The notes under the pieces were generated by a model. It was given only the letters and a program-made list of their open reading frames with translations, did not search any database and was not told the DNA's origin. Of a DNA stretch of 64,000 nucleotides, positions 618-63,734 are shown piece by piece. Source of the DNA: Pseudopyrenochaeta lycopersici (lineage: Eukaryota > Ascomycota > Dothideomycetes > Pleosporales > Pseudopyrenochaetaceae); contig NHZP01000061.1 of the NCBI GenBank assembly GCA_003313425.1, forward strand, positions 62,001 through 126,000, given 5' to 3'. Every line of letters starts with the position of its first letter. The first letter of the stretch is position 1. A program made the translations under genes and the position numbers.

Positions 618-669
618 ACCACTTGACAACTTTCTAGTGAAAGGAATCATATATAGCACTCGAAAGTTG
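618..669. repeat. Origin-like hairpin 1 of 41 (described in full)
   Basis: A 38-nt core (618-655) is nearly invariant at all 41 sites. Its left arm CAACTTTCTAGTG pairs with a right arm that belongs to the next module. Four right-arm types occur: CACTAGAAAGTTG, CACT-C-GAAAGTTG, ACAAGAAAGTTG, and a bulged CACTAGAAAAGTTG. The loop contains GGAATCATATATA, often followed by a mini-hairpin GGC...GCC. This site has the CACT-C-GAAAGTTG arm. Just upstream, a stem around a GCAAG loop is GAAGC/GCTCC here. Gene-free stretch 287-1072. The next hairpin is 1,569 nt on. By analogy with CRESS viruses the loop is the likely Rep nicking site; that is inference. Confidence 0.85.
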
Positions 670-1072
670 TCGGAGGGGCCCGTGCCCCAACTCGACCCGT
701 CTGTGCGCAGAACGCGCCACAGCTCCATGTGACCTGGCATCGCCTCCAGCCACAATTCCTGTGGACTTAGTCAAAATTTCTTGAGAGATTTGATGTTCCA
801 TCCCAGGGCGTCCACACCCTTACTGACCAAGCTGCGCACCACAATTTCTTAGTGCTTAACAAGGCACTGCCATTACAATATTAGCCTCCTATTCGATAAC
901 AAAAAATTAGATATATCTAAAATAAACAAACGTACCCATAATGCTACACAAATAGGTTATACCATACCAAAGAGCTTTATGATACTAAGGTATTATAAAA
1001 AGCACAAAGTCAGTATGTACTCTGTCTTTACCTTAGCATACTCTGTATCTTACCTAACATTCCTGCTACATC

Positions 1073-1807
1073 CTACTCAAAACGGCAAGAGAGCCACTCA
1101 ACGCCGTCAGGCTGTATCATGCCTACCGCATCACTGACCCCAGTAAACCAGTCTCGCTTTCCAAACGGCCATACACCCGAAAATCGGTCTACCAGAACAA
1201 ACCTTGGTGACTCATGGCTTACCCATGCGCAAGGCTCACACTGTGTGTACAAGCTACACACGCAGTCGACCCGCGTACTATAGTGCCCGAAGCGCATTCG
1301 ACGGAACATTTCTTCGACAACAGAAGCCTCCGCAGCCTGCCCATCCGGCAGTATAAGAATAGGTAGAATGCGCTCCACCAGCACATCCAGCGCCTCTACC
1401 GAGAGCTCCGCAAATGCAACCATCGTTTCCCTCTCGTTCTGATCCACTGTCTCCACCTTCACGACAAGAAACGCCTGTCGAGTTCCCCTATCGGCGCGAA
1501 ATTCTTCGCTGAACACTACATACTTCGTATGTCGTAGCAATACACACTTCTGCGGTGGTTGCCCACTCTCCTTGGTGAGCCACCAAGACTGTCTTCCCGA
1601 CAATTCTATACAGAACGTAAGGGACACAGCTTGCTCCACAAACTCTGTGATCATGTTAGTTGGGGAGATGCCCAACAAGCACTGGAAGGTTCACCTACCT
1701 GGCACTTGCCTCCGCACCTGTTCAATGTTTACAGCTGTCCCAGGGAAGGGGGAGCCCCTCTGACCCGACACAAGCGTGTCCAGTGACACTACATGACCGT
1801 CACCCAT
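1073..1807 (-). CDS. WWTKESG-family gene with usual start codon lost
   Basis: Exon 2 is 1073-1644, intron 1645-1698 (54 nt, GTAGGTGA...CTAAC...CACAG), exon 1 1699-1807. The normal ATG lies in the loop of a small palindrome (TTGCGA...TCGCAA, about 1835-1851). Here the 5-nt loop reads as its inverse, so the ATG is gone. The next in-frame ATG, at 1807, gives 226 aa and keeps SLDTLVSGQRGSPFPGT onward. Exon 2 is intact, with WWLTKESG, the CxC-x5-CxxC cluster and WFTGVSDAVG. TATA near 1897-1904. An active shortened gene or a silenced copy are both possible. Confidence 0.7.
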
Positions 1808-2186
1808 AGCCACTACGGGAGCCTCCTGCCCGGCTTGCGATGAAGTCGCAATAAAGTTTTAAAAAACACTCCGTAAAAACAGGTCCTCTGTTCATGTTAT
1901 ATCCACCTCCTCTCACCAAGAGCACCTAGTCCCTAGGGAGCAACGGAGTGCCTATTCCATGTAATTATATCCATAAACCAATCAGCGTACTGATTGAAAG
2001 GGTAGTGGGGCCAAGAGTGCCTCCCACGTGCCCACTGTGATCATCTGATCCGCACCGTCCGTGCTCCTGTGGGCTTACAGGGTGCAGCGCCCCTAGTCTC
2101 CAAGGAGTCTAACCCTTCGGTATTCGTTCCACTCATGGGCTCTGCTTAGATGTAAAGTGGCAAGGGTAACCAGCGCAAGGCTGGTG

Positions 2187-2238
2187 ACCACTTGACAACT
2201 TTCTAGTGAAAGGAATCATATATAGCACTCGAAAGTTG
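2187..2238. repeat. Origin-like hairpin 2
   Basis: Right arm CACT-C-GAAAGTTG; upstream stem CCAGC/GCTGG around GCAAG. Gene-free stretch 1808-2595. Next hairpin 1,582 nt on. Confidence 0.85.
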
Positions 2239-2595
2239 TCGGAGGGGGCCCGTGCCCAAAAACGACCCATGTCTGCGCTCCCCGAGCCACAGCCAACCTG
2301 ACTCGGCGTGCCCCTCCAGCCACAGTTCCTGTGGACTTAGCCAATTTTTTACGAATTTCCATCTGAAGGGCTCCCACCCTTACTGACCAAGCTGCGCACC
2401 ACAACTTCTTCGTTTCCAGAAGAGCCCTGCCATTACCATCTTAGCAACTATATGTGAAAAAAATAAATACACTTACAATAATGTACTAAATGAACCTGAT
2501 ACATAATGTATAATATATCCTCATAGTATACACACTATTACTTTCGTATACGCCATATACATAGAGACAAGAAGAGGAACCTACAGGTAACCACC

Positions 2596-3395
2596 TTACC
2601 AAGAACGAGTGCAACTCAACCAGTTCCTGCCAGACGGTAGTACTGCTCCCACAGCGTCACTGATTCCAGCGAACCAAGGCGACTCTCTACATGGCCGTAC
2701 CCCGGAAAATTCATCTACTCGAACAAACCTTGATGAAACACCATGTGCATACACACAAGGCTCACATATCCAGTTGAGAGTACATGCGCAGTCCACCCGC
2801 GTATTATACCATCCATCCTGTAAGGAATACAACAACATAGACGCCGTAAAGGCCTCTACCATCTGCCCCGGCGGCAGTATTAGAAGGGGTAGGATCCGCT
2901 GCAAGAGAACATCCAGTGTCTCTACCGAAAGCTGCGCAAATGAAACAAGGCTCCACAGTTCACCATCCCGACGGACCGCCTCCACCTTGAGGACCAGGAG
3001 CGACTGCCGAGTCCCACCATCGGCAATGAACTGACCGTACTCTCTCAGACAAAACGTGTGTTCCTCCTTTACACATTGGATAGGAAGGCGTCCGCTCTCT
3101 TTGGTGAACCACCAAGCTTGTCTTCCCGACGCATTTATGGTGAGCGTGAGAGACACATGATGCTCTACCAGCACTGTGATGAGGTTAGTTGGGAAGGGCC
3201 CAACTTCTTCCGTGTCTACGTAAACAGAAAGAGACACCTACAGGACACGTGATCCCTCACTACGTTAAACTCTGCTTCTGTCCCTACGGACAATGCGGAA
3301 GGGCTTCCTTCCTGCAACCCATCTATTCGTAATGGAAGGACACTTGTCATGTCTGCCTCCGCATAGCCAGTGCCCTGCCCGGTTTGCGACTCCAT
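2596..3395 (-). CDS. WWTKESG-family protein (reference description)
   Basis: Two exons: 3242-3395 (ATG at 3395) and 2596-3173, 243 aa. Intron 3174-3241 (68 nt, GTAGGTGTC...CCCAACTAAC...CACAG), phase 1 as in every family member. Exon 1 is a short variable leader ending in L-x-x-G/E-x-x-x-x-x-S-V-G-T-x-x-x-x-x-V-R-D-H-V. Exon 2 holds, in order: LVE..VSLT; SGRQAWWFTKESG; P-x-x-C; H-x-x-C-L; QSLLVLKVE; an FAQLSVETLDVLLQRILPLL helix; NTRVDCACTLNWICEPC, a CxC-x5-CxxC cluster that could bind metal; WFAGISDAVG; and a C-terminal WLSC. No signal peptide or membrane segment is evident. I do not recognise the family. It fills about half of all segments, so it may be a diversified structural or host-interaction protein, but no function is shown. 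TATA near 3469-3477. Duplicated at 12,080-12,879. Confidence 0.85.
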
Positions 3396-3768
3396 CGCAG
3401 GGTGATACAAAAAGAAAAGAATCCCTTCGAGGCCATGCCACATGTCCATGAACACAGATCCTCTGTTGTTATATACCGTGATATCCATCCTGTCTTTGCC
3501 AAGACCACCTAGTCCCTAGTAAGTAACCAAAAGCTCACTCCCTGTGTCTATGTTCATAGACCAATCAAATCATAGATTTAGATGGTGTGGGGGCAAGGGT
3601 GCCTCCCACGTGCCCACAACAGTCAGATGACCCGCACCGTCCGTGCTTTTGTAGGCTTACAAGGGTCTTTGCCTCTAGCCTCTAAAGAGACTAACACTTC
3701 GCTACTCCCTCCAGTCGTGGGCAAACCTTAAGGTAAAGTGTCAGGGGTCAAGGAGCGCAAGGCTCCTG

Positions 3769-3831
3769 ACCACTTGACAACTTTCTAGTGAAAGGAATCA
3801 TATATAGGCGGAACGCCACACTAGAAAGTTG
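3769..3831. repeat. Origin-like hairpin 3
   Basis: Right arm with mini-hairpin GGCG-GAA-CGCC then CACTAGAAAGTTG; upstream stem GGAGC/GCTCC. Gene-free stretch 3396-4164. It also holds an AATTTCTTTTGAGGGAAAAC direct repeat near 3960-4020. Next hairpin 1,578 nt on. Confidence 0.85.
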
Positions 3832-5109: not shown

Positions 5110-5640
5110 CTAGTTGGCAGTGTGGTGCCCATTCCATGCTGTCTATGTTCATAGACCAATCAGATAGATAATCTGAGAAGTGTGGCAACACAATGATCCG
5201 ATGATCATCACGCACAGTCCGTGCGTTGTGTTACTTACAAGGGGCAGCGCCTCTAAACTAATTCTAGTTTAACCCTTCGGTATTCGTTCCACTCACAGGC
5301 TCTGCTTAGAGGTAAAGCCGTCGTGGTCCCGAGCGCAAGGCTCTCGACCACTTGACAACTTTCTAGTGAAAGGAATCATATATAGGCGGTTCGCCACACT
5401 AGAAAGTTGAGTCGGGGCCTGTGCCCCCTCCATGCGCCACACTCCATGTGACCCAACGTGACTTCCAGCCACAACAAAATCGGACTTACGCATTTTTTGA
5501 AAAATAATTTTCAATGTTCCATCCCAGGGCGTCCACACCCTTACCAAATTCAGCCTACGCCAACAGCAACGATTGTTCCAAAAACACCACTCCATGCCTA
5601 AAAATACTGCGTCCAACAAAAACCTCAGGTATTTCAAAAA
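5110..5640. promoter_or_regulatory. Exemplar of the structured common region
   Basis: Plus-strand order, recurring in most modules: CCTAGTCCCTAG; a CTATG/CATAG hairpin; CCAAT followed by a hairpin (CAGA..TCTG here, CAATCAG/CTGATTG elsewhere); GATC/TGAC inverted repeats near 5193-5206; a 7-bp stem TAAACTA-ATTC-TAGTTTA (about 5256-5273); a small CC-TTC-GG stem; the GCAAG-loop stem; and the origin hairpin. Then, on the 3' side, come GGCC..GCC pairings, an AAAT(C)GG...C-ATTTT stem around GACTTA, and an AGGG..CCCTT stem. The stems change sequence between modules while staying paired, so structure is under selection as RNA or ssDNA. Confidence 0.7.
5347..5409. repeat. Origin-like hairpin 4
   Basis: Right arm with mini-hairpin GGCG-GTT-CGCC; upstream GTGGTC...GAGC/GCTC...GACCAC stem. 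Gene-free stretch 4920-5734. Next hairpin 1,566 nt on. Confidence 0.85.
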
Positions 5641-5643
5641 GTA

Positions 5644-5711
5644 CTATAAGACAATACTATTAGCCATACACGGACTACACCAATATCAATCCCAATACTA
5701 CACAAACGTAC
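5644..5711 (-). other. Probable 3'-UTR intron (exemplar)
   Basis: About 25 nt below the stop of the next gene. The minus strand reads CACAG|GTACGTTTG, then GGCTAATAG, and ends CTTATAG (68 nt). Comparable GTAAGT, GTATGT or GTACGT donors sit about 270-370 nt right of many hairpins (for example at 2476, 16,731, 18,275 and 35,595). Confidence 0.5.
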
Positions 5712-5734
5712 CTGTGCATATCCACCTATCTACG

Positions 5735-6551
5735 CTACACGTATTGAACAAAATAAGGGTCTCCAAGATAACCAAAACCATCATCTAAGCATTTAAGCCA
5801 GTTCTGTCCTGATGGTTGTATTTCTCCTACCGCATCGCTAATCCCAGCGAACCAGTCAAGCTTTCCAAACGCCCATACACGGGAAAATCCATCTAAGCGA
5901 ACAAACCTCGATGAAATCCGGTGTGCACACACACAAGGCTCACACTGTGTGTAGAAGGTACATGCGCAGTCGACCCGCGTACTATAGTACCCGAAGCGCA
6001 GTCGATAGAACAACGCCTCCACATCTTCGATATCCAGCCTCTCCCCCGACGGCGTTGCGATAAGAGGTAAAATGCGCTGCAAAAGCACATCAAAGGCCTC
6101 TACCGAAAGCTCCGCAAACACAACAGAACTCCGCACTTGATCCCTGGCCAGGGTATCCACCTTGAGCACAAGGACCGACTGTGCTCTACCGCCTCGTTCA
6201 CAGAACTCCTTGTAGTCTTCCAGACACTCTGTATGGTCCCAAGAAACGCATTCGCTAGGAAGGCATCCGCTCTCCTTGGTGAGCCACCAAGATTGTTTTC
6301 CCGACAGTTCCACATGAACGGTAAGAGAAACAGAGTCCTCCACAAACTCTGTCATCATGTTAGTTGGGGAGGGCCCAACCTGAGAAAAGAAGTAGATACC
6401 TACTAGGAATGTGCCTCCGCACCTCTTGAATGTTTGCCGCTGTCCCAGCGAAGGGGGAGCCCCTCTGACCCGGCAGAAGCGTGTCCAGTGACAGTAAATG
6501 ACCGTCACCTGTAACCTCTACAGTACTGCCCTGTCCCAGGAGCGACCCCAT
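5735..6551 (-). CDS. WWTKESG-family protein
   Basis: Exon 1 6404-6551, intron 6349-6403 (55 nt, GTAGGTATC...CTAAC...GACAG), exon 2 5735-6348; 253 aa. Start is ATGGGGTCG in the conserved palindrome. Exon 1 is the SLDTLLPGQRGSPFAGT type. The C-terminus extends about 16 residues past the usual end (after WLKC), with Gly and Tyr. TATA 6635-6642. Two further copies follow in tandem at 13,641-14,457 and 15,207-16,023. Confidence 0.85.
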
Positions 6552-6912
6552 CGCATTGTAAAAGCAAATAATAAAAGAGAATGTTCATTCCCTACAAACA
6601 GTAACACTCCGTGAACGGGGAAGGGGCTCCCCTCTTATATATCGATGTCCATGCTATCTTCGCCAAGACCACCTAGTCCCTAGATAGCAGAGCGCTGCTC
6701 CCTCCATGTCTCTATGTACATAGACCAATCAGACTAAAGATCTGAGAAAATGTGGGCAAGCAGTGATCAGATGATCAGCACGCGCCCGTGCTCTGCGTTG
6801 CTTACTAAGTGCATGCCCCTAAACTAATTCTAGTTTACCGCTTCGCTACTCGTTCCACTCGCCGGCCCTGCTTAATTGTAAAGTGACAAGGGTAGGCAGC
6901 ACGAGGCTGCCG

Positions 6913-6975
6913 ACCACTTGACAACTTTCTAGTGAAAGGAATCATATATAGGCGGTTCGCCACACTAGAAAGTTG
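6913..6975. repeat. Origin-like hairpin 5
   Basis: Mini-hairpin GGCG-GTT-CGCC; upstream stem GGCAGC/GCTGCC with ACGAG loop. Gene-free stretch 6552-7283. Next hairpin 1,577 nt on. Confidence 0.85.
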
Positions 6976-8830: not shown

Positions 8831-9713
8831 CTACGAATACTCCCCTAACAACAGATCCCCACTACGATCATACAACACATCCGTAAGAGCCCCCAGCTCC
8901 CAGTCCTCCATCTCTACAAGACCAAGACCACCCTCTCCTTCATCGCTGTTAAAGGGTTCTGGTGCTAATGACATCCAATCAGCGGAATCGTAATCAGAAG
9001 CCACACTGTCAGAGTGGCCAGGAAGTACAAAACTACTAGCATAACAACAAAACCCTTCCGGGGGCTCCAGCCAAGCAGGGTCGACATAAGCGCATCCACC
9101 ACCACCGGATCCAAAACCGGACAGTCCCGGGGTTTCCACAATATCCATAGAGGCAGCATTCACTGGCCCGCAACCATCGCCGACACTCAACGGCGGGTAC
9201 TCCCCCGTGAATACAGAGGGATAACATCTCAGTGTATCCGCTCCATACATGAGGCTTCCCATAACAGAGGGAGCAGACAGGCCTTCTAAATTTCGCACCA
9301 CGTTATACTCTGCAAGGTCCACCTTGGCACGTAAAAAGCTCTCCACCAAAGCGACTTCTTCGCTCCCACAAGATCTAAGAAACCCCCACTTCGTGGATAT
9401 AGTTGACAGACGTTCTAGGAACCACTTCGCGGGCCCTTCGAGCAATTTATCGACCTTCTGTACCTTCGGAACCTGCAAAAACGAAGGAGTCAGCATTATC
9501 ATGCTACACAAGCGCCAAACAGAGACCTACTCTGGAGAGACCCGGATCACTACCGGGCTTACGCCTCCGCTTCCCAAGTAAAGCTGTCCCAGCAGCAACG
9601 ACAGTAGCAGCGTACAACGCCCCACCTTGCAAACAAGACGTAAACATAGAGCTCCACCGTCCGTCAGCTCCCTGACTCGAAACAAGTGTGCAGACATTCC
9701 ATCGTGCATCCAT
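8831..9713 (-). CDS. Single-pass membrane protein with acidic C-terminal tail
   Basis: Exon 1 9531-9713 (in-frame ATG also at 9725), intron 9473-9530 (58 nt, GTAGGTCTC...GCTGAC...TTTTTGCAG), exon 2 8831-9472; 274 aa. Exon 1 contains a hydrophobic stretch GGALYAATVVAAGTALL followed by KRRRK, a typical membrane helix plus stop-transfer. The cytoplasmic or lumenal tail is Gly- and acid-rich (DYDSADW, EGEGGLGLVEMEDWE). The promoter is the short TATAAATGG type (9784-9790), without most of the structured upstream elements. Small membrane proteins serve movement or egress in several ssDNA viruses, but nothing here proves that role. Single copy. Confidence 0.6.
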
Positions 9714-10492: not shown

Positions 10493-11259
10493 CTAGAGTT
10501 GTAAACTAACAAACTTACGTTCCACTCCACGCAAACCCACGTCCAAGGGCAAAGACGGATAACACACCTTACCTAAAAGTAACGGTGATGCACACACATC
10601 ATCCCACAACTTCCAAAAAACTTTCAATAGCTCCCGCCCTTCATCTCCTACAAAAAATAACACGTAATGTCCATCCTCTAACTTAATAGCGTGTAGATGG
10701 AACTTCGCCAACTTGCTCCACATCACAGCAGAACAATTTACTGTAACCTGCCGAACTACAGTACGGATACTCCCATTCCTATAGACAACAACATTAGCAT
10801 AGCCATGCACAATACAATAGTATTATAATCATACTCTTCGTACTCGATAACCGTTTCTATATCAAAACTCGGCTTAGCCTGTAGAGTAAACGGTGCGCCA
10901 AACATAGCATCCGCCCTGTTCAGAGATCCTCGAACGACTCTCGCCTGCCGCTGAAGAACCCATTCGGCAGGGAACAGAATTCTAGGTGGAAACTCCATTA
11001 ACCACACATAGTCTGCAGGAAGTCCAAGGCCCATCACCTGCGCGGCATCATCCTGGGAAAGCGCTTCCGCAAACCTTACCAGCAAGCATCGCTCACCACG
11101 ATCCATAGTGTCACATGACCCAAACCATTGGTAACAATTCCCATTTATATGCTTTTCAGCAAGCCCTCGAAATCCAGCCTCACCTGGAATATCAAATACT
11201 CCGTACTGTGCGTACCCGTACCTCACCTTGTGAGACGTAGCAGCAATGGGACCCGCCAT
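10493..11259 (-). CDS. Unrecognised 236-aa protein
   Basis: Exon 1 10835-11259, intron 10779-10834 (56 nt, GTATGATT...TGCTAATG...CTATAG, phase 2), exon 2 10493-10778. Splicing joins two otherwise overlapping frames exactly. The ATG at 11259 is preceded by codons reading G-T, so the start shows the GTMAG context seen in exon 1 of some WWTKESG genes (around 17,556 and 55,396). An upstream in-frame ATG at 11337 would add 26 residues. TATA 11391-11398. The protein is mixed, without recognised motifs; it includes a QWFGSC and a LLKVFWKLWDDV helix. Single copy. Confidence 0.55.
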
Positions 11260-11670: not shown

Positions 11671-11722
11671 ACCACTTGACAACTTTCTAGTGAAAGGAAT
11701 CATATATAGCACTCGAAAGTTG
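11671..11722. repeat. Origin-like hairpin 8
   Basis: Right arm CACT-C-GAAAGTTG; upstream GAGC/GCTC type. Left neighbour differs from hairpin 2 while the right side is the same module, placing the switch inside the core. Gene-free stretch 11260-12079. Next hairpin 1,582 nt on. Confidence 0.85.
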
Positions 11723-12079
11723 TCGGAGGGGGCCCGTGCCCAAAAACGACCCATGTCTGCGCTCCCCGAGCCACAGCCAACCTGACTCGGCGTGCCCCTC
11801 CAGCCACAGTTCCTGTGGACTTAGCCAATTTTTTACGAATTTCCATCTGAAGGGCTCCCACCCTTACTGACCAAGCTGCGCACCACAACTTCTTCGTTTC
11901 CAGAAGAGCCCTGCCATTACCATCTTAGCAACTATATGTGAAAAAAATAAATACACTTACAATAATGTACTAAATGAACCTGATACATAATGTATAATAT
12001 ATCCTCATAGTATACACACTATTACTTTCGTATACGCCATATACATAGAGACAAGAAGAGGAACCTACAGGTAACCACC

Positions 12080-23124: not shown

Positions 23125-23909
23125 TCATTCTGAGGAATACTCGGTGAGGCAAGACAGCCAATCCTCTCCTGACGGTTGTATCATGCCTACCGCATCACTG
23201 ACCCCAGTGAACCAGTCTCGCTTGAAAAACGGCCATACACTCAAAAATTGGTCGCAAAAAACGAACCGAGCAAGCGCATACTCTAACGATGCGCAAGGCG
23301 AACACATCCTGTGCAGCGTGCATGCGCAGTCCACCCGCGTAGAAAAACCACCTCGGGACAGTATATCAAACAATGCCTCCACAACATAAGCCTCTACCAT
23401 CCGCCCATCTGGCAGGATGAGAAGGGGTACTATGCGCTGCACAACCACATCCAGCGCCTCTAGGGAGAGCTCCGCAAATGCAACGATTGTATCCCTCTCG
23501 TTCTGATACACCGTCTCCACCTTCACGACAAGAAATGCCTTTAGGGTACCCCCCAAGGCACAGAATTCCTTACGAGCGTTTAAACACCCCGTGTGCTGTT
23601 CCTCCACACACTCGGTAGGAAGGCGTCCGCTCTCCTTGGTTAGCCACCAAGATTGTTCTCCCGACAATTCCATACAGAAGGTAAGGGACACAGAGTCCTC
23701 CACTAACTCTGTGATGAGGTTAGTTGGGAAGGGCCCAACGTGAGAAACCAAAGTAGATACCTACCAGGCACGCGACTCCGCAGGTATTCAATGTTTGCAA
23801 CTGTCCCAGGAAAGGGCTCCCCCCTCTGACCCGGCCGAAGCTGGTCGACTGACGGCAAATGACTATTATCCGTAGTCCCTACACTATCTACTACCTGTAG
23901 CGATTCCAT
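23125..23909 (-). CDS. WWTKESG-family protein
   Basis: Exon 1 23765-23909, intron 23709-23764 (56 nt, GTAGGTATC...CTAACCTCATCACAG), exon 2 23125-23708; 242 aa. Exon 1 ends NIEYLRSRVPG like the partial gene at the left edge, while exon 2 is nearer the gene at 1073-1807 (LTFCxELSG, LSLEALDVVVQR). TATA 23,979-23,986. Confidence 0.85.
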
Positions 23910-38407: not shown

Positions 38408-38470
38408 ACCACTTGCTCAACTTTCTAGTGAAAGGAATCATATATAGGCTGCGCCACACTAGAAAAGTTG
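38408..38470. repeat. Origin-like hairpin 25
   Basis: Mini-hairpin GGC-TGC-GCC, bulged right arm; TTGCTCAAC core variant with matching AAAGTTGCAAG; stem GGCAGC/GCTGCC. Gene-free stretch 37773-38539. The 3' flank before the Rep stop is only about 70 nt. Next hairpin 1,573 nt on. Confidence 0.85.
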
Positions 38471-38539
38471 AGTTCTGGCCTGTGCGCGACCCGCACCGCC
38501 ACCACGAAAATGGACATAGCCATTTTTCATTCTATCTAT

Positions 38540-39718: not shown

Positions 39719-39981
39719 AATATCGCTCCACGATAGCGCGCTACATATCGGCCAGAGCGCGCATATAAATACTACCTACCTCAAGCTCCGCCAAGATACA
39801 CTACTCCGTAGAAAGAGACATACTGCCCACTCCATGTGTTCCCGCCTCCACGTGACAAAAAGGCTAGCGCTTACAGGGGGCAGAGGCCCTAAACCCCAGG
39901 TGGTTTAACGCTTCGCTTCTCGTTCCACTCGAGGCCCTGCTTAGATGTAAAGCCGTCGTGGTCCCGAGCACAAGGCTCCTG

Positions 39982-40043
39982 ACCACTTGACAACTTTCTA
40001 GTGAAAGGAATCATATATAGGCTGCGCCACACTAGAAAAGTTG
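39982..40043. repeat. Origin-like hairpin 26
   Basis: Mini-hairpin GGC-TGC-GCC, bulged right arm; GAGC with ACAAG loop and GCTCC. Gene-free stretch 39719-40432. Next hairpin 1,573 nt on. Confidence 0.85.
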
Positions 40044-40432: not shown

Positions 40433-41219
40433 TTACGACCATCCACGACAGGAGAGCCAGTCCTCTCCTGACGGTTGTACTATTCCTACTGCATCGCTGA
40501 GTCCACCAAACCAACATGTCCTTGACGACCGCCATAAACGGTAGAATCGGTCTAGACGAACAAACCTTGGTGATGTATGGGATAAAAACCCACAAGGCTC
40601 ACACCTACTTTTAACAGTACACGCGCAGTCGACCCGCGTACTATACCACCCTTCCTCTAAAACGTAGAACAATCTACGTACCGTAACAGAAGAAGCATCC
40701 GCAGCTTGCCCACTAGGCAATGCAAGAAGAGGGATAACGCGCTCCACCAGCACATCCAGTGCCTCTAACGAGAGCTGCGCAAACGCAACATAGCTCCACA
40801 CCACGCCCCTAACCAACGTATCCACCTTGAAGACCAGGAGAGACTGCCGGGTGGTACCCTGTGCACAGAGTTCTTTATAGTCCTCCAGACAAAACCGGTG
40901 CTTCTGAGAAATACACTGTCGAGGGAGCTGCCCGCTCTCCTTGGTCAACCACGCGGATTGTCTCCCCGACACATCGAGATAGAGAGTAAGAGAAACGCAG
41001 TGTCCCACCAGCTCTGTGACGATATCAGTTGGGAGGGGATACCCAACCTGAGAAAAGAAGTACATACTTACGTTGAACGTGCCTCCGCACCCATTGAAGA
41101 TTGTTGGCTGTCCCAGGAAAGGGCTCCCCCTTCTCGCCAGGCAAGAGCGTATCTACTGCTAACAAGCGACTATCATCCATAGCCTCTATGGGAGCACCCT
41201 GTCCCTGTAGCGACTCCAT
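40433..41219 (-). CDS. WWTKESG-family protein (Ala for second Trp)
   Basis: Exon 1 41072-41219, intron 41014-41071 (58 nt, GTAAGTATG...ACTGATATCGTCACAG), exon 2 40433-41013; 242 aa. SGRQSAWLTKESG replaces the first of the paired Trp. Cluster CAC-x5-CEPC; WFGGLSDAVG. TATA 41,278-41,283. Confidence 0.85.
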
Positions 41220-46742: not shown

Positions 46743-47538
46743 TTAACACTGAGATGCATCCGCATACCAACAACGCAGCCACTCGGCCCCAAACGGGTAC
46801 ACTGTACCAGGAGCGTCACTGACACCAGCGAACCACGCTGAATCTCTATTCGGACGCATGCAGTGAAATCTATCCCAACGCTCGAACCGCCGCTGCTTTC
46901 TCGTGAGCGCCGCACAGCATGCGCAGTCTTCATACAAGGTACAACTACACAACGCGCTGCTAGAAAACCGCCCGTTCTCCAACGCAGCGCACACTGCGAG
47001 CAACAACTGCACATCTGCAGCGTGCCCTCCTGGCAACACCACAAGAGGCAACACACGTTGCACAAACACATCGAGTGTCTCTTCCGAGAGCCGAGCAAAG
47101 AAGACAATGCTCTGCCAGCGACCACTTATCGGGGTCAGGGTATCCACCTTAAAAACAAGCAAGGCCTGCCGACTATCGCGGAGGGAAATAGAATCAACAT
47201 AGCCCCTAAGACATCCGTCATGTTGTTCGTCCACGCACTGCTGAGGAGGCTTCCCGCTCTCCTTCGTGGGCCACCACAATACGCCGCCATCTTCTCTATT
47301 ATGGCACGTCATCGATATTCCTTGTTCCACAAGCTCTGTCCCAGAAAACAAAATCAAGTTAGTTAGGCGTCTCTAACTTGTTTACAACGAAAAAGCGCCT
47401 ACCGTGCAAGTGCTCCCGCACCCACTGTATGTTAACATCAGTCCCTTCAAACGGCTCCCCGCGCACACCTGGTTCCAGTGTGTCTATCGACCACCTCTTG
47501 CTTCCACCAAGCGAACTCACTCCGGCTTGCGTCTCCAT
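46743..47538 (-). CDS. WWTKESG-family protein, diverged paralogue of 27,826-28,615
   Basis: Exon 1 47403-47538, intron 47336-47402 (67 nt, same layout), exon 2 46743-47335; 242 aa. Differs from its relative at scattered residues (LWWPTKESG, CSC-x5-CACC, two extra residues after KVDT). It shows slow divergence, unlike the unchanged copies elsewhere. TATA 47,601-47,608. Confidence 0.85.
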
Positions 47539-48429: not shown

Positions 48430-48993
48430 TTACCGTAACTCCTCCTCCTCCGCGTCCAATAAAAGAGGAGTGCCACACCGCCAGAACTCCAATGGCGCCG
48501 AAAACATAGACAACTCTTGGTCAAACGCGTAACCAAAGGGCGCACCTCCTGTAGTACCCCAACGCTCTGCATTGGCATCACCGTACCCTCCAGAACACGC
48601 CTTCACGCAAGGCCTCCGTCCCCAAAGCGTAACATGTTTTCCCAGATCAAGCGCTTCGCGACTACTGCATCCACCAAAATCAATGAACACGTCTACCCAG
48701 ACGAATTGGCAGTAGGGCGCACGGCATGCTGGCCCCCGGATACCACCATACAACACACTGCACACAGGATCACCAACAGGCGAGGCATCCGCGTCAAGTG
48801 CACCAGCACCAAGGCAAGCTGCATGCCAACGTGTCCCTACCGGCAAAGACTTGCGAAGAATCGAAGATACCTCCGCTCCGCTCGGGGAAAACACCTGTTT
48901 AAACCGCAGCTTCACAAAGCGAACCCCTCCTGGGCATCCCGTAACCGGAACTCCTGAATGTATGCGCCAACGATCCCACCGAGGCACAATCAT
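48430..48993 (-). CDS. Unrecognised 187-aa protein
   Basis: Open from ATG 48993 to 48430. The long leader to the TATA (49,155-49,160) holds intron-like signals (GTATGCGT...GGCTGAC...TGCGTAG, about 49,007-49,060) that would remove an upstream ATG. The protein is Gly/Val/Cys-rich, probably beta-rich (WRIHSGVPVTG, VRFVKLRFKQVF, CQFVWVDVFIDFGG), with a terminal EEEE. A beta-rich fold of this size would be compatible with a capsid protein, but no motif supports it. Single copy. Confidence 0.55.
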   Translation of the reverse strand: MIVPRWDRWRIHSGVPVTGCPGGVRFVKLRFKQVFSPSGAEVSSILRKSLPVGTRWHAACLGAGALDADASPVGDPVCSVLYGGIRGPACRAPYCQFVWVDVFIDFGGCSSREALDLGKHVTLWGRRPCVKACSGGYGDANAERWGTTGGAPFGYAFDQELSMFSAPLEFWRCGTPLLLDAEEEELR

Positions 48994-49895: not shown

Positions 49896-50689
49896 TCAGC
49901 AGGAACGCCGGCAGGTTAACCAGTCCTCGCCTTCCGGCTGTATAGTCCCTACCGCATCGCTGAACCCAATAAACCAATAAAGCTTTGACCGCTGCCATAC
50001 GCCGTAAAATCGAGCTAAACGAATAAACCTCCGTGACTGGGAACGTACCGACGCGCAAGGCTCACACCTCTTATATAGTAAACACGCGCAGTCCACCCGC
50101 GTATTAAAAACCCCTTCGTCTAACGCGTAAAACACTTCGTCAACAACAGAAGCCTCCGCCCTCTGGCCTTCTGACGTTGTGATAAGAGGTAGAATGCGCC
50201 GTGTAAGCACATCGAATGTCTCTACTGAGAGCTCCGCAAACACAACCTGGCTCCGCTCCACCCCATCCTGGAGTGCATCTACCTTGAGGACCAGGAGCGA
50301 CTGCCGGGTGCCCCCCTCGTAACAGAGATCTTCATGGAACTTCAGACATGCTCTGTGTCGTTGCTCCACACACTGCCGAGGGGGCTGCCCACTCTCTTTG
50401 GTAATCCAACATGATTGTCTCCCCGACAACTCCACACTAAACGTGAGAGAAATACCGCGTCCCATGAACACTGTACGCATGTCAGATAGGCTCCCCTACT
50501 AACTACTTACCTCTCTAACGAGATAAAGAGACACTTACCAGGCACGTGATCCCTCACTACGTTAAACTCTGCTTGTGTCCCTACGGACAATGCGGAAGCG
50601 CTTCCTTCCTGCAACCCATCTATCGTCGATGGGAGAACACGGGTGCCAGCGAAACCCGCCTCAGCCTCTTGCCCAGTGTGCGATGCCAT
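49896..50689 (-). CDS. WWTKESG-family protein (Cys for first Trp)
   Basis: Exon 1 50539-50689, intron 50471-50538 (68 nt, GTAAGTGTC...CTGACATGCGTACAG), exon 2 49896-50470; 241 aa. SGRQSCWITKESG has Cys in place of the first Trp. Close to the 35,706 gene in exon 1 and at the start of exon 2, but its cysteine cluster (CAC-x5-CEPC) follows other members, suggesting mosaic ancestry. TATA 50,756-50,761. Confidence 0.85.
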
Positions 50690-51664: not shown

Positions 51665-52222
51665 CTAGACAGTCGCAAACTTTCGGGGGAAAGCAAGTAT
51701 CGCTGCGAACCATCGCATCCACAAACAACCACACAGCACGCTACACGCACTACACCCTGCCGTTTGACCAATATACACCAACAGGTATATTGGCCCTAGA
51801 GACTGGCTGTCCCCGCCACCGTGTCTGCGCAAAAGAAAAGAACGCCGCCTCCGGTTCAGTACCACTTCGTATTGTAGACCACATCTCCACGCCACGTCGA
51901 TGCATCGCTGCAACTACATTAGCACAACATGCAACACAACAAATATGGCATCCGCCAACGACTCCTACTGACCAACTTCGTCGTCCATAATATAAGCAAT
52001 AGATCGTTCAACAGAACGAACCAGCCCACAACCAAGATGCACTACCGGCGGTTGCCCATCCAGCCAGCAAACTAAAGACCCGCGTCTCCACGCTGCGAAG
52101 AGCTTACAAACCTGTCCCAGGCGCACAAACTCTGAAAGAGAGACTCCGTCTGCGCATATCTCCAGCGCCGCAAACCAGAGCTCCGCGGGGAGCATAGACA
52201 ACGGATCTACGCCCCCACCCAT
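51665..52222 (-). CDS. F-box protein
   Basis: Exon 1 51977-52222, probable intron 51908-51976 (69 nt, donor GTTGG or the nearby GTCAGT, branch GTGCTAATG, acceptor TTGCAG), exon 2 51665-51907; about 162 aa. Residues 9-45 of exon 1 match the F-box pattern: LPAELWFAALEI, then LSEFVRLGQVCKLFAAW. That is L-P-x-E-L, spaced hydrophobics, and V-C-K-x-F-x-x-x-W. F-box proteins dock to Skp1 and bring targets to SCF ubiquitin ligases. Exon 2 is basic, then Cys-rich. Nanovirus Clink proteins also carry an F-box, so a ssDNA multipartite element encoding one has a precedent. TATA 52,327-52,334. Confidence 0.65.
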
Positions 52223-52687: not shown

Positions 52688-52756
52688 AGTTCTGGCCTGT
52701 GCGCGACCCGCACCGCCACCACGAAAATGGACATAGCCATTTTTCATTCTATCTAT

Positions 52757-53935
52757 CTACGCTAGATCGTCATCTACATACAGTAGATCCGCCAACTCAA
52801 CCACAACACAAGGCGCATGCTTCAGATACGCCGCAATGTCAGGAACTTTCCGAGGGTCATTATCTGCATTGCACGTTACAATGACTGGAAATCCCCAACT
52901 CAAATTCCGTGTTTTCGTATACCGATCGTGCGCATCAATACAAGCCTGCCCACCAAGTATTTCTCGCCAATACCGGTACTTACCAGACCCAAAATTGCTG
53001 AAATCGATGTCGTTTAACACGAGATGCGACGCATCCTGGTCATAATTACCAAGGTTCCACTGATTGGACATGGCCATGGGCTTGGGCCCTGCACGCAAAG
53101 CCCATTCTGTCTTTCCTAGCCTCGATGGACCAACAAGAATGAGGGGGACAGGTCTACCCTTATATGACCCCCCAATGTAACTTTTCCGCCAATCCTCCAT
53201 GGCGACCGGGACACGCCATTGCTTCAGGGGTTCCCCAGAGTCTACCCACCCTCGTCCAGGCGTGCCTTTCTTCTCGTTAGCCAGATAGGACGAGTACGCG
53301 TTATAAAACTTGATAAATCCCATAGGATCCAGTTCCATCAACATCCGTTTCGCTTTAATGTAATCAGGTTCCACCAGCACCTCAGCGAACTTGCGCTTCC
53401 GAGACTCAGAACTACTGAGTGACTCGATCCTCGTCCCAAAAAACACCGAATCATCATACTTAAAACAGTAATTCTGTGTGTTTTCCAAAAAATCAGACTC
53501 CCGCTGATACGGGCGAGGCACCGAGAACCGAATAGCCTCTGTATCCACTGTGCCATCAGACAGATAAATTCGAAAATGTTGGTGTGCATCCACCCAATTC
53601 GTCCGACGCGTGAACCGAAACACTGCGTGATAATGAGGCTTCCCATCCTCATGGCGCTCTTGACAACCGTAAATCTCCGTACCAGGAGGCATCCGCTCCT
53701 GAAGAAGATTGTAAAATTCGGACGCGTCCTCCAGACGACTCTGTGACCACGTTACAAGAACAACGTTGACCCTCAACGCGAAAGCTTCCCTTTCCCCACA
53801 CCCATCCGGGAGGTCATCGACTACGCTCGACGCACTTCCTTGCGTACTACACGAAAACAAAGACGCAAAAGATGTCCGCCTGGACGACGGTCCCACCGTA
53901 GAAATATCGCACGTCTCTACTGTAGGCTCCGCCAT
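52757..53935 (-). CDS. rep: CRESS-type replication initiator, second copy
   Basis: Same 392-aa product and flanks as 38,540-39,718, 14,217 nt to the right. All catalytic motifs are kept. Confidence 0.95.
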   Translation of the reverse strand: MAEPTVETCDISTVGPSSRRTSFASLFSCSTQGSASSVVDDLPDGCGEREAFALRVNVVLVTWSQSRLEDASEFYNLLQERMPPGTEIYGCQERHEDGKPHYHAVFRFTRRTNWVDAHQHFRIYLSDGTVDTEAIRFSVPRPYQRESDFLENTQNYCFKYDDSVFFGTRIESLSSSESRKRKFAEVLVEPDYIKAKRMLMELDPMGFIKFYNAYSSYLANEKKGTPGRGWVDSGEPLKQWRVPVAMEDWRKSYIGGSYKGRPVPLILVGPSRLGKTEWALRAGPKPMAMSNQWNLGNYDQDASHLVLNDIDFSNFGSGKYRYWREILGGQACIDAHDRYTKTRNLSWGFPVIVTCNADNDPRKVPDIAAYLKHAPCVVVELADLLYVDDDLA

Positions 53936-54634: not shown

Positions 54635-55426
54635 TTACCAAGAACGAGTGCAACTCAACCAGTTCCTGCCAGACGGTAGTACTGCTCCCACAGCGTCACT
54701 GATCCCAGTAAACCAGTAACACTTCCCGAATGGCCTTACCCCAGAAAACCCATTCAAACGAAGAAACCTCGATGAAATCCGGTGCGCACACACACAAGGC
54801 TGACAGATTCTGTACAAAGTACACGCGCAATCCACCCGCGTACTATAGTACCCAATGCTTAAAAACTGCATTAGTCCCTCCATGCTTACAGCATCTACAA
54901 CTTGCCCACCAGGCAATCTAATTCTAGGCAGTACCCGCTGTACGACAACATCCAGTGTCTCTAGGGAGAGCTTCGCAAATATAACACGGCTCCGCACCAC
55001 GCCATTCCAACTCGTATCCACCTTGAGGACAAGAAGCGCCTGCTGGGTACCCCCCGAGGCACTGAGTTCCTGGTAATCCTCAAAACACTCCATGCGTTGT
55101 TGTTCGGTACATTGACGGGGAAGGCGTCCGCTCTCCTTGGTAATCGACCAAGCTTGTCTTCCCGACGCATCAACATACGCCATGAGAGAGACATGCTGCT
55201 CCACCAGCACTGTGATGACGTTAGTTGGGCATCGGCCAACCTATCGTGTGTCTAGGGGAAAAGAAAAACACTGACTGTGCACGTGATCTCTCACGCGTTG
55301 CAGTTCCACAGCTGTCTCTACAGACAATGAACAGGAACTCCCTTCCTGTAACTGACGCACAATAGATAAGAAGCTTATGGTAGCACTGGCTCCCGCCATA
55401 GTGCCCTGTCCAGAGCGCGACTCCAT
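54635..55426 (-). CDS. WWTKESG-family protein (Ser for second Trp)
   Basis: Exon 1 55276-55426, intron 55210-55275 (66 nt, donor GTCAGTG, CTAACGTCATCACAG), exon 2 54635-55209; 241 aa. SGRQAWSITKESG. The last 20 or so residues (AVGAVLPSGRNWLSCTRSW) equal those of the gene at 2,596, while the middle differs: a sign of recombination within the coding region. TATA 55,492-55,498. Confidence 0.85.
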
Positions 55427-57864: not shown

Positions 57865-58458
57865 CTACACACCTGATGTATGTACAGCAGACTCGTCTTG
57901 CCTAACGACCAAAGGATCGCGAACGAGCCCCACAAGACCACGCCACCGCTCGATGCGCCTCTGCCACATTGCAACTGAGGCTAACGCTTCACGATGCCAC
58001 TGTACGTTCGATCCACGAGTGCCTGGCCGGCCACAAAGTCCTGCAATTATCCCCGAAGACTCCGCAACACGGAAGGGACTCTCATGCAGCCAAACCACTG
58101 TCCGCACTGACACAGGGCCAAAGTCCACCAAGGCATACACACAGCGTAACCACCTCCGGTCATGCAGTTCCACACGCAGACTCGCATAAAACTCAGCCTC
58201 CGCAGGTAAAACATTGGACAACTCCTGTTCCACATTGTTGACGCCCCACGGGCCTGTCCAAGGCGCATAGTGGACGAGAAAGAACCTATCACGGGGCATA
58301 AAGACACCCTCAATGCCCCATAACTCGAACCTGGACCGAAAACGACGCGGTTCATGCACACTCTGTAAACCCGATCCGGGTGGCATGGAAACAGGTTGAC
58401 CTGATGTGCCTCCAACACGACGGCTCCTACAAGAACGCTGCCTACGCGAGCGGGACAT
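57865..58458 (-). CDS. Rep-like domain protein with catalytic motifs lost
   Basis: Open from ATG 58458, 197 aa. The first 16 residues are Arg-rich (SRSRRQRSCRSRR). Residues about 55-130 align with the Rep of this array by eye: FFLVHYAP for motif I (LVTWSQ); LPAEAEFYASLRVELHDR for MPPGTEIYGCQERHEDG; CVYALVDF where Rep has HYHAVFRF; and RTVVWLHESPFRV for RTNWVDAHQHFRI. The HUH histidines and the YxxK tyrosine are absent, and there is no helicase. It may bind origins without nicking; that is inference. A coat-like protein with an Arg-rich N-terminus is the alternative. The promoter lacks the usual elements; the nearest TATTTAT is about 360 nt up. Confidence 0.55.
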   Translation of the reverse strand: MSRSRRQRSCRSRRVGGTSGQPVSMPPGSGLQSVHEPRRFRSRFELWGIEGVFMPRDRFFLVHYAPWTGPWGVNNVEQELSNVLPAEAEFYASLRVELHDRRWLRCVYALVDFGPVSVRTVVWLHESPFRVAESSGIIAGLCGRPGTRGSNVQWHREALASVAMWQRRIERWRGLVGLVRDPLVVRQDESAVHTSGV

Positions 58459-61022: not shown

Positions 61023-61608
61023 CTAATAACCCACTGAGCGTGCACGCAGCGTTGTAACAAGATAATGTAGTTCCACGTGACTCTCCAAGCCCTCTGCAAT
61101 ATAGCAAAGTATCAGATTAAAGAGACTCACGACCAATGTGAGCCTCGACAATTGCATAAAGCCGTTCCACTTCTACGCGTAACGCTTCCACCGACTGTAA
61201 TAGTTCGGTACCACCGCCACGCCCTCTTCCGGGCTTACGACAAACACAAACACGCCGTGATGGAGACGTTCTCTCCATACGCGTACGCTTCGCATTCCTT
61301 GTCCCATCAGAGCCCTGATCGGAAGAAGACTCTTCAGAATCTACGATGCACCACCGCTTCCGTCGCGGCTTACCCCTCGCCACCCGGTCTCGTGCAAACA
61401 ATGGTGATGCACCTACAGCAGTACAGTTGATACTGTTAGGACCATCCGCCCCATTCGCTTCGCTGCAAGAGGTACCCTGCGATGCATCCAGCACGCACTC
61501 ATCATCGCCAACGATAAACCCATCGAGATCAGTATCCTCTGAATCTCCATCCGGCTCAGTACTAGACATTCCGTCATGGTTACGTGAACGCGCAGCCGCT
61601 GAAACCAT
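61023..61608 (-). CDS. Acidic, nuclear-signal and coiled-coil protein
   Basis: Exon 1 61131-61608, intron 61094-61130 (37 nt, GTGAGTCTC...ATCTGAT...TATTGCAG, phase 1), exon 2 61023-61093; 182 aa. The N-terminal third is acidic with a DLDGFIVGDDE motif resembling acidic histone-binding segments (family resemblance only). Next come two basic clusters, GKPRRKRW and AKRTRMERTSPSRR, around a Ser/Asp patch (DSEESSSDQ). An RGRGGG stretch and a helix with heptad leucines (LLQSVEALRVEVERLYAIV) follow. A nuclear regulatory or nucleic-acid-binding role fits. TATA 61,804-61,810. Single copy. Confidence 0.65.
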
Positions 61609-62082
61609 GTAAGCTACTCCATATCAAACGCTATACATAACTGTATACAGCTACTACTTACAAGACTCCGTTATAAAATAAGACGCAACACTTGTTTGCG
61701 CCATAACAATAGTACGCTGTACACCCACCTCCGTGTACTCTTAGTTAAGAGTGTTGCTGGAAAACATCCGTCCCACCTCCGTGAAAACAGAGAAGCTGTT
61801 ATGATTATATACCTCTCTATCTTGCGCACTGCCAAGACACACTAGTCCCTACGAGGCAGAGGCGTGCCTACTCCCTATGTCTACATTCATAGACCAATCA
61901 GAATTTTATTCTGAGAAAGAGTGGGCAAGCAGTGATCATCTGATCAGCACGCGCCCGTGCTCTGCGTTGCTTAGTAAGTGCAGCGCCTCTAGTCTTTAAA
62001 AAGACTAACCCTTCGGTACTCCCTCCAGTCGTAGGCTCTGCTTAGATGTAAAGTGTCCAGGGTCTCCAGCACGAGGCTGGTG

Positions 62083-62144
62083 ACCACTTGACAACTTTCT
62101 AGTGAAAGGAATCATATATAGGCTGCGCCACACTAGAAAAGTTG
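62083..62144. repeat. Origin-like hairpin 40
   Basis: Mini-hairpin GGC-TGC-GCC, bulged right arm; stem CCAGC/GCTGG with ACGAG loop; 7-bp stem TAGTCTT-TAAA-AAGACTA fully paired. Gene-free stretch 61609-62987, AT-rich between 62,300 and 62,700. Next hairpin 1,601 nt on, the longest interval. Confidence 0.85.
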
Positions 62145-62987
62145 AGTCGTGGCTGAAAAATTTTTCAGCACCCCGGTAAAACGTGACCTCCAGCCACAAC
62201 AAAAATGAACTTAGCCATTTTTTCGAGAGGTCTGATGTTCCATCTTCCATCCCAAGGGCTCCCACCCTTAACAATGAAGCTCCGCACTTCCTAACGTACT
62301 ATGCCCCACCACAAGCAACGCACGTCTAACGCATAGTACCTCTTACCTAGTTCCTATATAACACAAATTAGTAAAAACACCCATGATAGAGACAAAACAA
62401 ATAGCCTCGCAATTCTAAAAAAAAAAAAAGAACCTACGACATAGATACCATCAACGTATTGTAAAAAAGCAAGTAGGGTAGGAAATACCCTAAACACAGA
62501 ACACAAGGCTACTACCTAGCCTATCAGTAGGGAAATAAAACATTTACAGAAACAAACACTCACGTAATAGACGCTGCCCTAACATTATAGCTACGCATTA
62601 TGAGAAAAACAGTACTACGCACATACTGCATCCTCAAATAGGGAAGAGTAAAGATAACTCTATACGTTACAGGCTACACGACATATGCTTCCCGCAGTAC
62701 AACCACATATCGTAGAGAACTACGAAGACAGAAACGTCAGTAACATGATACACAAGCCTTCTTAACTTGTCGCAATAGACAAGGCGGTATACTTACCAAA
62801 AAGCCCACACCTTCGGCGCAGCAACCATCCCTACCCACTGCGTCCACAGTGCGTCCGCTTCCGCAAGTAACTCTCCGAGGCCGACCGATCACCAACCCAG
62901 CACATCCGTGACAGGCAAGTGCAACAGAGTAAAGCACTCTGTAGGACGCTCACGAAAATCACCCCAAGCGCCTCCAACGCAATCGAG

Positions 62988-63398
62988 CTACACTCGACCG
63001 ATATCGCGGCCTTCCCGCTCTCCAGCACCTTCATCCAGTGTTGTGACTGGGCCTGCGCCTTCCAAACCATTGTTCGCTCCCGCCGAAGAACGACCATCGT
63101 AAAGTATTCCGCTCTGCATCCAGGTCTGCCAACCGGGAGACACGCTCCACGCACCACTCGTGCTTTGCATAAACACCTCTTGGGGCCGGTTCCACCGTGC
63201 GTCCATGTCCAATATGTGCGGCGCACAAGGAATACGATATGCGAGGCTCCGCCGTACAATGAGAAAACGTCCCTTTTCGTTGCAATTCTTGCTCAATGCG
63301 TCCGCGATGGAAGAGTTAAAGAAGTCTTTGCGATAACCCCGCAACAGACAGAAGCCGCGAGCCTCCGCCAGCCCCGCGGAAAAACGGCGGAAAAACAC
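62988..63398 (-). CDS. Uncertain gene of interval 40
   Basis: Two overlapping open frames cover 62,831-63,398. The upstream one (136 aa from 63398) has RRSLAYRIPCAPHILDMDARW. The other has a hydrophobic helix (IALEALGVIFVSVLQSALL) that recalls the WWTKESG-family helix. A splice probably joins them, with donors such as GTGTTTATG or GTGCTGGAG, but I cannot choose. No TATA seen. Confidence 0.3.
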   Translation of the reverse strand: MFFRRFSAGLAEARGFCLLRGYRKDFFNSSIADALSKNCNEKGRFLIVRRSLAYRIPCAPHILDMDARWNRPQEVFMQSTSGAWSVSPGWQTWMQSGILYDGRSSAGANNGLEGAGPVTTLDEGAGEREGRDIGRV

Positions 63399-63683
63399 CG
63401 GTGCCCCGCCTTGATGTCATCCGACCAATAAGCATACCAGTAGATACCTAACCCACGTCCGTGACCCGCTACTAGCTCCCAACGCTCCCGCTAACAAATC
63501 AGACCAAAGATCTGAGAGAGAGTGGGCAACCCTGCGGTCATCTGACTCACACGGTCCGTGCTGCATGTTGCTTACCGGGGCTTTTGCCATTAAACTACAA
63601 GTAGTTTGACGCGTCCGCTGTTCCCTCCAGTCACAGGCAAAGCTTACAGTAAAGCCGTCGTGGTCCCGAGCGCAAGGCTCTCG

Positions 63684-63734
63684 ACCACTTGACAACTTTC
63701 TAGTGAAAGGAATCATATATACACTCGAAAGTTG
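63684..63734. repeat. Origin-like hairpin 41
   Basis: Right arm CACTCGAAAGTTG following a loop that ends TATATA; upstream GAGC/GCTC type. Gene-free stretch 63399-64000. The window ends in the 3' region of the next module, so the array goes on. Confidence 0.85.

Follow-up and report, generated by a model that had tools for sequence, protein, structure and literature searches.

Polydnaviruses of wasps derive many circles from segments in the host chromosome, and residence at chromosome ends is known for HeT-A/TART (in flies, as polar arrays), TRAS/SART, MoTeR and human herpesvirus 6 (HHV-6). The Nanoviridae have plant hosts and carry their genes all on one strand, and we know of no chromosomal arrays of them. 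According to the available part of their description, they have six to eight segments, near-equal circles (eight segments of 920-1,022 nucleotides (nt)) whose size is possibly optimal for packaging (PMC5094692). Two fungal systems come closer, as far as the accessible portions of their papers go. BcssDV1 is tetrasegmented, and each of its circles holds a single gene. DNA-B (1,690 nt), DNA-C (1,669 nt) and DNA-D (1,707 nt) are similar in length, the 380-amino-acid (aa) Rep has a geminivirus-type domain, and common regions contain the origin stem-loop (PMC10731770). Fusarium graminearum gemytripvirus 1 (FgGMTV1) is a multipartite circular single-stranded DNA (ssDNA) mycovirus of three segments, two mutually dependent and one accessory (PMC11708013). 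Neither text mentions telomeres in those portions, nor does that of BcssDV1 mention integration (PMC10731770, PMC11708013). The window considered here is a 64,000-nt stretch of Pseudopyrenochaeta lycopersici (C61:62001-126000, contig NHZP01000061.1 of assembly GCA_003313425.1; genome G000, 62.7 Mb in 188 contigs). It holds an array that probably represents stacked integrated segments of a very highly multipartite, virus-like CRESS-DNA element with about 100 segments, whose Rep would join nicked circles to telomeric 3′ ends.

The array occupies positions 618..63734 of the window (C61:62618-125734, + strand) and comprises 40 modules and 41 hairpins. The hairpin core AACTTTCTAGTGAAAGGAATCATATA, with up to two mismatches, occurs 41 times on the + strand and never on the − strand, and the 40 hairpin-to-hairpin intervals measure 1,542-1,601 nt (mean 1,576.65, standard deviation (SD) 10.2); the count, range and mean given in an earlier note on this DNA were all reproduced. 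The first hairpin (626..670, + strand) has the stem ACAACTTTC.../...GAAAGTTGT and a join point, GGAA^TCATATA, between 646 and 647, and the last lies at 63692..63734 (+ strand). Eight of the 40 modules are letter-for-letter copies of another. Module m02 (2216..3797, − strand) recurs as m08 (11700-13281), m04 (5376..6941, − strand) as m09 and m10 (13282-16413), m19 as m27, m23 as m28 and m29, m25 as m34, and m17 as m38. Exact comparison thus leaves 32 distinct modules, the number of segments that had been claimed, and DNA BLAST with more than 1,000 nt aligned places the modules in 28 groups. By DNA comparison, the last ~350 and the first ~200 nt are common to the modules, while the middle mostly differs.

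The same unit length is found outside the window. Complete modules could be cut from the window and from loci of at least 3 kb, giving 154 of the roughly 890 in the genome. Module lengths do not vary freely elsewhere, a point on which the earlier note had hung its interpretation: all 154 measure 1,536-1,609 nt, with no outliers. At 90% identity they form 73 types, of which 31 were seen once and 19 twice (Chao1 ~98), so that the expectation of far more segments than the six to eight of nanoviruses was borne out. The 41 types that hold pieces of the commonest protein family, an orphan family, have a mean length of 1,576 nt (SD 10.9), and for the 32 types that lack it the mean is 1,580 nt (SD 9.6). 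Because the two sets match in size, equal length is not confined to copies of one gene, in agreement with the earlier statement that unrelated modules are equally long. Nanoviruses (PMC5094692) and BcssDV1, with 1,669-1,707 nt for three segments (PMC10731770), are likewise even in length across unrelated contents. A packaging limit may set the size here, where the capsid protein is a candidate. Among same-type pairs, 102 of 144 are exactly identical, and the 19 pairs of distinct variants within types differ mostly by indels, some of which may have arisen in assembly. The longest ATG-started open reading frame (ORF) reaches 150 aa in 46 types, and in 43 of these it is on the − strand.

Identical modules in different surroundings reveal where the units are exchanged. 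For the 102 identical pairs, which are not independent within one type, the surroundings diverge within 150 nt on the left in 94 of the 98 pairs for which the flank is long enough, and on the right in 99 of 102. In 16 pairs the right flanks part at the very base that follows GGAA, and in two pairs the left flanks differ once the two bases AA are passed. Because the flanks diverge there, the exchange point is placed at GGAA^TCATATA in the hairpin loop, with a two-base ambiguity, and eight pairs in the window give the same point at lower resolution. Module order is near random, with five recurrent ordered pairs among 126 adjacencies (shuffled mean 1.2, maximum 6) and five same-type neighbours (shuffled mean 2.3). 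The main hairpin stem is present in all 73 types and, being invariant, gives no covariation. A stem-loop adjoining the origin does covary across the 73 types: pair 128/140 is CG in 34, GC in 33, GT in 6 and broken in none, and pair 127/141 is GC in 42, CG in 22 and broken in nine. This second stem-loop, of the GGAGC-GCAA-GGCTCC type, lies in the last ~60 nt of the module (for example window 590-625) and is possibly a Rep-binding or packaging signal.

Throughout the genome, the hairpin core (up to two mismatches) occurs 853 times (512 and 341 on the two strands), whereas a reversed-pattern control gives no match; a search of this kind had been proposed in the earlier note. The 17-mer that precedes the join point occurs at 894 places, and the total number of hairpins is about 890. 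The sum 853 + 41 = 894 accounts for every hairpin but one: a 17-mer on C60 belongs to neither class, so that at least one of the 853 hairpins must be mismatched in the 17-mer. That copy (C60:240697-240713, locus L072) lies outside the arrays and has flanks unlike module ends; after it come ACCTAATC and a run of degenerate CCTTAACC. It either matches by chance or is the very old remnant of a telomere joint.

The arrays lie at chromosome ends. Contigs C1-C60 contain eight (C4, C5, C10, C18, both ends of C23, C50, C54), all at contig ends with the outermost hairpin no more than 1.8 kb from the end, and the 301-kb contig C61 has hairpins in every stretch read. A terminal telomere caps 11 outer ends of arrays. 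In C18, C77, C99 and C118 it begins exactly at TCATATA, and in C92 at the same place with one slipped unit. Seven other outer ends that were inspected (C4, C10, both ends of C23, C61, C81 and C101) stop inside a module. Polarity is identical in 11 of 11 capped ends and in 21 of 21 inner edges.

Telomere repeats are also found at the inner edges of arrays and between modules, in a fixed register. The pattern CTTTCTAGTGAAAGGAAYCC (the 17-mer followed by YCC) matches 41 places, all of which were read: 21 are inner edges, 19 are internal joints in register and one is off register. Every inner edge reads GGAA|CCCTAA, one with an extra C. Perfect units number two in 13 edges, three in six and one in one, and none of the 21 is followed by a module match in the 190-3,000 nt read beyond it. 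The internal joints have the form GGAA-(CCCTAA)n-TCATATATA, where n is 1 (seven joints), 2 (two), 3 (five), 4 (four) or 5 (one), so that whole repeats, one to five in number, occupy 19 of the 20 internal joints that hold telomere sequence. The search pattern presupposed an intact GGAA; when this demand is dropped, 836 of 840 places of TTGACAACTTTCTAGTG continue into AAAGGAA, a check that reaches trims up to the shorter arm, and deeper ones only in loci of at least 3 kb. Of the 17 telomere runs of two or more units in the window and those loci, one is inside a chromosome and the others are at joints or terminal telomeres, and no run lies inside a module in loci of at least 3 kb. The telomere-holding internal joints cluster, with six adjacent pairs among 20 (null mean 0.44; reached in none of 20,000 trials). 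In C119:23296-28092 and C81:14314-17487, consecutive single modules are separated by one to five telomere units, as if added singly. On C23 (33.6-36 kb, locus L003), a degenerate telomere-like tract with CCCTAA, CTTACC and CTCTCC variants adjoins the array inside the chromosome and is perhaps what erosion has left of an older telomere.

A replication protein is encoded in the array itself. Module m25 (38438..40010, − strand), identical to m34, contains an intact 392-aa Rep ORF at 38540..39718 (− strand), and the second copy lies at 52757..53935 (− strand). The HUH motifs VTWSQ, HYHAVFRF and YCFK and the helicase motifs GPSRLGKTEW, LVLNDIDF and IVTCNAD are aligned in its relatives. These number 14 at E ≤ 0.001, and the best five are 51-57% identical. 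Sources with names are Colletotrichum sojae and two species of Pyrenophora, P. seminiperda and P. tritici-repentis (in the latter a 1,600-nt contig); among named organisms, Pyrenophora has the closest Reps. When 15 Reps were combined in a profile, it matched six Rep domains among solved structures (E 4e-6 to 3.6e-5), and six of the 14 relatives carry a precomputed PF00799 or PF08283 assignment. At least nine full-length copies exist in the genome (gene copy counts here and below are lower bounds), all 100% identical in protein. Two broken copies, with a frame change or a TGA, are found at C99:184-1360 and C166:1872-3045, the former in the module directly beneath the telomere. A relative of Rep with the HUH part alone (187 aa from ATG, helicase part absent, 46% identical over 122 residues) occurs at no fewer than three places (locus L023 on C131, C92:44965 and C119:20485) in a module of 1,596 nt.

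Rep and origin together point to the Cressdnaviricota. The Rep joins an HUH domain to an SF3-type helicase (profile E 4e-6), the origin stem is in 73 of 73 types with the exchange point in its loop, where nicking is predicted, and the 73 types with this common origin, all of 1,536-1,609 nt, resemble the segments of a multipartite virus. A role of the hairpins as rolling-circle origins is supported by the encoded CRESS-type Rep and by the movement of whole, unaltered modules with the cut in the loop. The earlier claim of a multipartite rolling-circle element therefore agrees with the Rep, the exact mobile units, the loop cut and the many segments, and it is right in part; the location at telomeric ends and the repeat register lay outside it. 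Genomoviridae genomes are described, in the accessible part of the source, as ~1.8-2.4 kb with Rep and capsid protein (PMC11708013). The segments here are 1.58 kb, the capsid protein is a candidate, and segmented members of that family exist. By its Rep and origin the element is filed as CRESS-DNA and, since its capsid protein is a candidate, not as a genomovirus. Within the accessible text, BcssDV1 differs in having four segments and FgGMTV1 three, against 73 types here. The proposed nick is TACTCTT^CA in DNA-A, B and D of BcssDV1 and ...GATT^CC here, and the 327-aa BcssDV1 capsid protein was recognised by structure, whereas here there is a candidate (PMC10731770, PMC11708013).

Other mobile elements resemble the array in single respects. 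The discovery of the Rep and of a pleosporalean RPB2 led to the dropping of a trypanosome or other antigen-gene array and of kinetoplast minicircles, which the array alone had suggested. The RPB2, in a frame of 906 aa, shares 94% identity with its counterpart in Plenodomus lingam and 93% with those in Parastagonospora nodorum and Pyrenophora seminiperda, which puts the genome in the Pleosporales. Polydnaviruses differ in their large double-stranded DNA circles, unrelated replication genes and non-telomeric location. Helitrons and HUH transposons share an HUH nuclease, a hairpin and rolling-circle chemistry, but the Helitron Rep-helicase is of another family and size with a Pif1-type helicase, insertion is at AT and not at telomere repeats, and we know of no fixed-size multigene set among them; a Helitron is ruled out by the 392-aa geminivirus-type Rep and by joints at telomere units. 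HeT-A/TART, TRAS/SART, MoTeR and HHV-6 use reverse transcription or homologous recombination and are not known to form an HUH-type joint in exact repeat register. Telomeric retrotransposons have a reverse transcriptase and joints at the end of their own transcript. Here the joints are at the hairpin loop, and Pfam scans of overlapping sets of 10, 12, 10 and 9 proteins, which covered part of the ORFs, matched no reverse transcriptase; such an element was rejected.

These observations can be joined in a single scheme. Each ~1.58-kb circle would contain the common origin hairpin and one or a few genes. On the − strand, the hairpin context around the predicted nick is TATATATGATTCCTTTC with a two-base TT window, and in the first hairpin TATATATGATT^CCTTTC would be the region nicked by Rep. 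Rep would cut the coding strand in the loop at TATATATGA(TT)CCTTTC, with the two-base ambiguity, and remain on the 5′ end. An HUH Rep that nicks a strand retains its 5′ end and can transfer it to a 3′-OH; the 3′ end of the telomeric G strand could be such an acceptor, and the freed 3′ end of the element a primer for telomerase. Besides merely re-closing the circle, Rep would thus pass its 5′ end to the 3′-OH of the G strand (...TTAGGGTT-OH) or, alternatively, to that of a previously integrated module. The 3′ end thereby created (...TATATATGATT-OH) could then be extended by telomerase (AGGGTTAGGG...) or receive the next circle, and repeated rounds would produce polar arrays that grow outward from short telomeres.

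On the − strand the array end reads 5′-chromosome-(TTAGGG)n-TTCC...module...TATATATGA-(TTAGGG)m-3′, that is, with the 5′ side of the element toward the chromosome and its 3′ end toward the telomere. The one polarity of the 11 capped ends is what would be expected if a 5′-linked − strand were joined to a telomeric 3′ end, and the one Rep-to-telomere scheme would account for the join point, the integer repeats, the fixed polarity and the terminal position. Tracts of 0-3 units at inner edges and 0-5 between modules, as against at least 18 in the terminal tract of C118, point to ends that are short or newly made as the usual acceptors. Where modules abut directly (n = 0), the cause may be rapid successive addition or action of Rep on hairpins already in the array. 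Tentatively, and at slightly less than even chances, we extend this to a ~100-circle element that takes telomere 3′ ends as acceptor for its Rep-bound DNA, each infection adding 1.58-kb modules and the host telomerase re-capping the end.

Several points weigh against this scheme. The element is known here from its chromosomal copies alone, and circles, ssDNA and particles would have to be supposed. Likewise, the action of Rep on telomeres is deduced, and telomerase healing with end-joining could mimic part of it. Six of the 11 capped ends (C5, C54, C65, C83, C102, C124) are on a broken module, and healing of breaks therefore also occurs. No joint between modules of the window contains a telomere unit. 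The C5 inner edge has a single unit, the C4 inner edge (locus L005) begins CCCCTAA with an extra C, and one internal joint (locus L036) is off register, its next module being without its first bases; moreover, three or fewer perfect repeats at inner edges fit the model only with an added preference for short telomeres. Hairpin energy is −13.46 for a module's own ends, −13.64 for neighbours and −13.53 for random ends, which gives no circle signal. As a single sequence, Rep matches Pfam families below the cut-off (Gemini_AL1_M 8.7e-4, Gemini_AL1 0.026). The Rep gene shares the strand of most other ORFs here, which is the strand predicted to be nicked, whereas the Rep ORF of BcssDV1 is of negative sense in the part of its description available (PMC10731770). 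The capsid candidate, finally, a 353-aa protein of one type, has no relative in Pfam, PDB, PHROG or the viral contigs of IMG/VR, and its structural model (pLDDT 36; mostly strands) is too poor to trust. It remains a lead on account of the missing Pfam, PDB and PHROG matches and of that unusable model. Its N-terminus is basic (19 K/R and 3 D/E in the first 66 residues), and at least eight full copies, all 100% identical, and two N-terminal fragments are present.

The strongest competing account keeps a multipartite ssDNA mycovirus but makes its capture passive, with host repair ligating linear forms onto eroded telomeres and Rep merely generating the ends. The 0-3 perfect telomere units at all 21 inner edges are what eroded ends would have, the element encodes a Rad52-like protein, and the capped ends on broken modules are healed breaks. 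End-joining should nevertheless trim and scatter the joints, yet the module end is intact in the 836 of 840 places given above, and TCATATA is intact beside whole repeat units in 19 of the 20 telomere-holding internal joints, which were found through an intact GGAA; we consider passive capture unlikely. An assembler might instead have put extrachromosomal concatemers into chromosomes. The seven array ends that stop within modules, and within-type variants that are mostly indels, like base-calling errors, would suit such an artefact, but the 21 inner edges run through the same joint into sequence without a module match over the 190-3,000 nt read, on contigs of 1-2 Mb as well (C4, C5, C10, C18 and both ends of C23), which makes it very improbable.

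Telomeric retrotransposons of flies lengthen and protect chromosome ends, and the arrays might similarly be kept by the host for that use, their viral ancestry being secondary. The abundance of hairpins (~890), the position of eight of eight C1-C60 arrays at a contig end, the hairpins in every stretch read of C61 and the constant polarity are in keeping with this. Telomere repeats are still present at the 11 capped ends, so that telomerase is probably still in use. In addition, 52 of the contigs C1-C60 lack the exact 17-mer, and the capsid candidate and an orphan family in 41 of 73 types would be superfluous for end protection; we consider a host-useful system very unlikely. Subtelomeres often exchange sequence, and an ordinary subtelomeric gene-family array, if unequal crossing-over and gene conversion had carried it from end to end, would explain those identical modules that have common flanks (four left, three right). 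Such exchange, however, would break anywhere in the ~500 nt of common ends and not in the hairpin. The near-random module order, the telomere units between modules and the encoded Rep also disagree with it, and with the telomere-joint and flank data already contradicting it, this account is hardly credible. Joining of nicked circles by Rep to telomeric 3′ ends is accordingly the explanation that we prefer.

Mobile DNA may have a new means of docking at chromosome ends, as an array of this kind at telomeres suggests. Multi-segment genomes are a puzzle because each extra segment cuts the chance of a complete infection, and an element that keeps ~100 equal segments at the ends of its host's chromosomes would be an extreme test case for multipartite viruses. 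A heritable chromosomal library is a possible answer, as a reserve that supplies missing segments. The joint at telomere repeats would be a new integration chemistry, testable with one protein and two oligonucleotides. If the scheme is true, telomeres are docking sites for Rep-bound DNA, telomerase and reverse transcription are not the only two means of adding defined DNA to chromosome ends but have a third beside them, and the element is perhaps the most segmented virus-like genome known. A literature search of titles and abstract openings, with most subscription journals and bioRxiv preprints outside its reach, found no case of telomeres joined to an ssDNA or Rep element. The IMG/VR viral contigs contained no free relatives when queried with the Rep, a seven-Rep alignment, the hairpin and the capsid candidate.

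Among the remaining genes, one type outside the window encodes the Rad52-like protein (PF04098, 7.2e-28), in at least 13 genome copies that are all 100% identical; a two-piece match on C12 (45-48%) is presumably the host's own Rad52. Another type outside the window is F-box-like at 7.3e-4, below the Pfam cut-off. The orphan family has conserved cysteines, no Pfam match, no relatives among 8,000 candidates scored from 5.8 billion proteins, and an unusable model (pLDDT 48). Some of its genes are one long frame (24610-25464; L008:7965-8789) and others are split in two, the first frame being short and the second longer; an intron is likely. Within the window its ORFs, all on the − strand, are those of m01 (module 647..2215 from join point to join point; ORF 1073-1654, 193 aa), m04 (5735-6358, 207 aa), m15 (23125..23673, 182 aa), m16 (24610..25464, 284 aa, the long uninterrupted form), m18 (27826..28389, 187 aa), m20 (30895..31395, 166 aa), m22 (34121..34651, 176 aa), m23 (35706..36287, 193 aa), m26 (40433..41065, 210 aa), m30 (46743..47312, 189 aa), m32 (49896..50480, 194 aa) and m35 (54635..55183, 182 aa).

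Scans of the window for Rfam families, tRNAs and tandem repeats gave nothing relevant, and indices of repeat-induced point mutation (RIP) of 1.12 and 1.06 were equivocal and left unused. Five further ORFs on the − strand have no Pfam match: those of m06 (8831..9502, 223 aa), m07 (10756..11259, 167 aa), m31 (48430..48993, 187 aa), m33 (51965..52222, 85 aa, F-box-like by eye) and m39 (61117..61608, 163 aa). The ORF of m37 (57865..58458, − strand, 197 aa) has an Arg-rich N-terminus and is present in at least 12 genome copies, all 100% identical.

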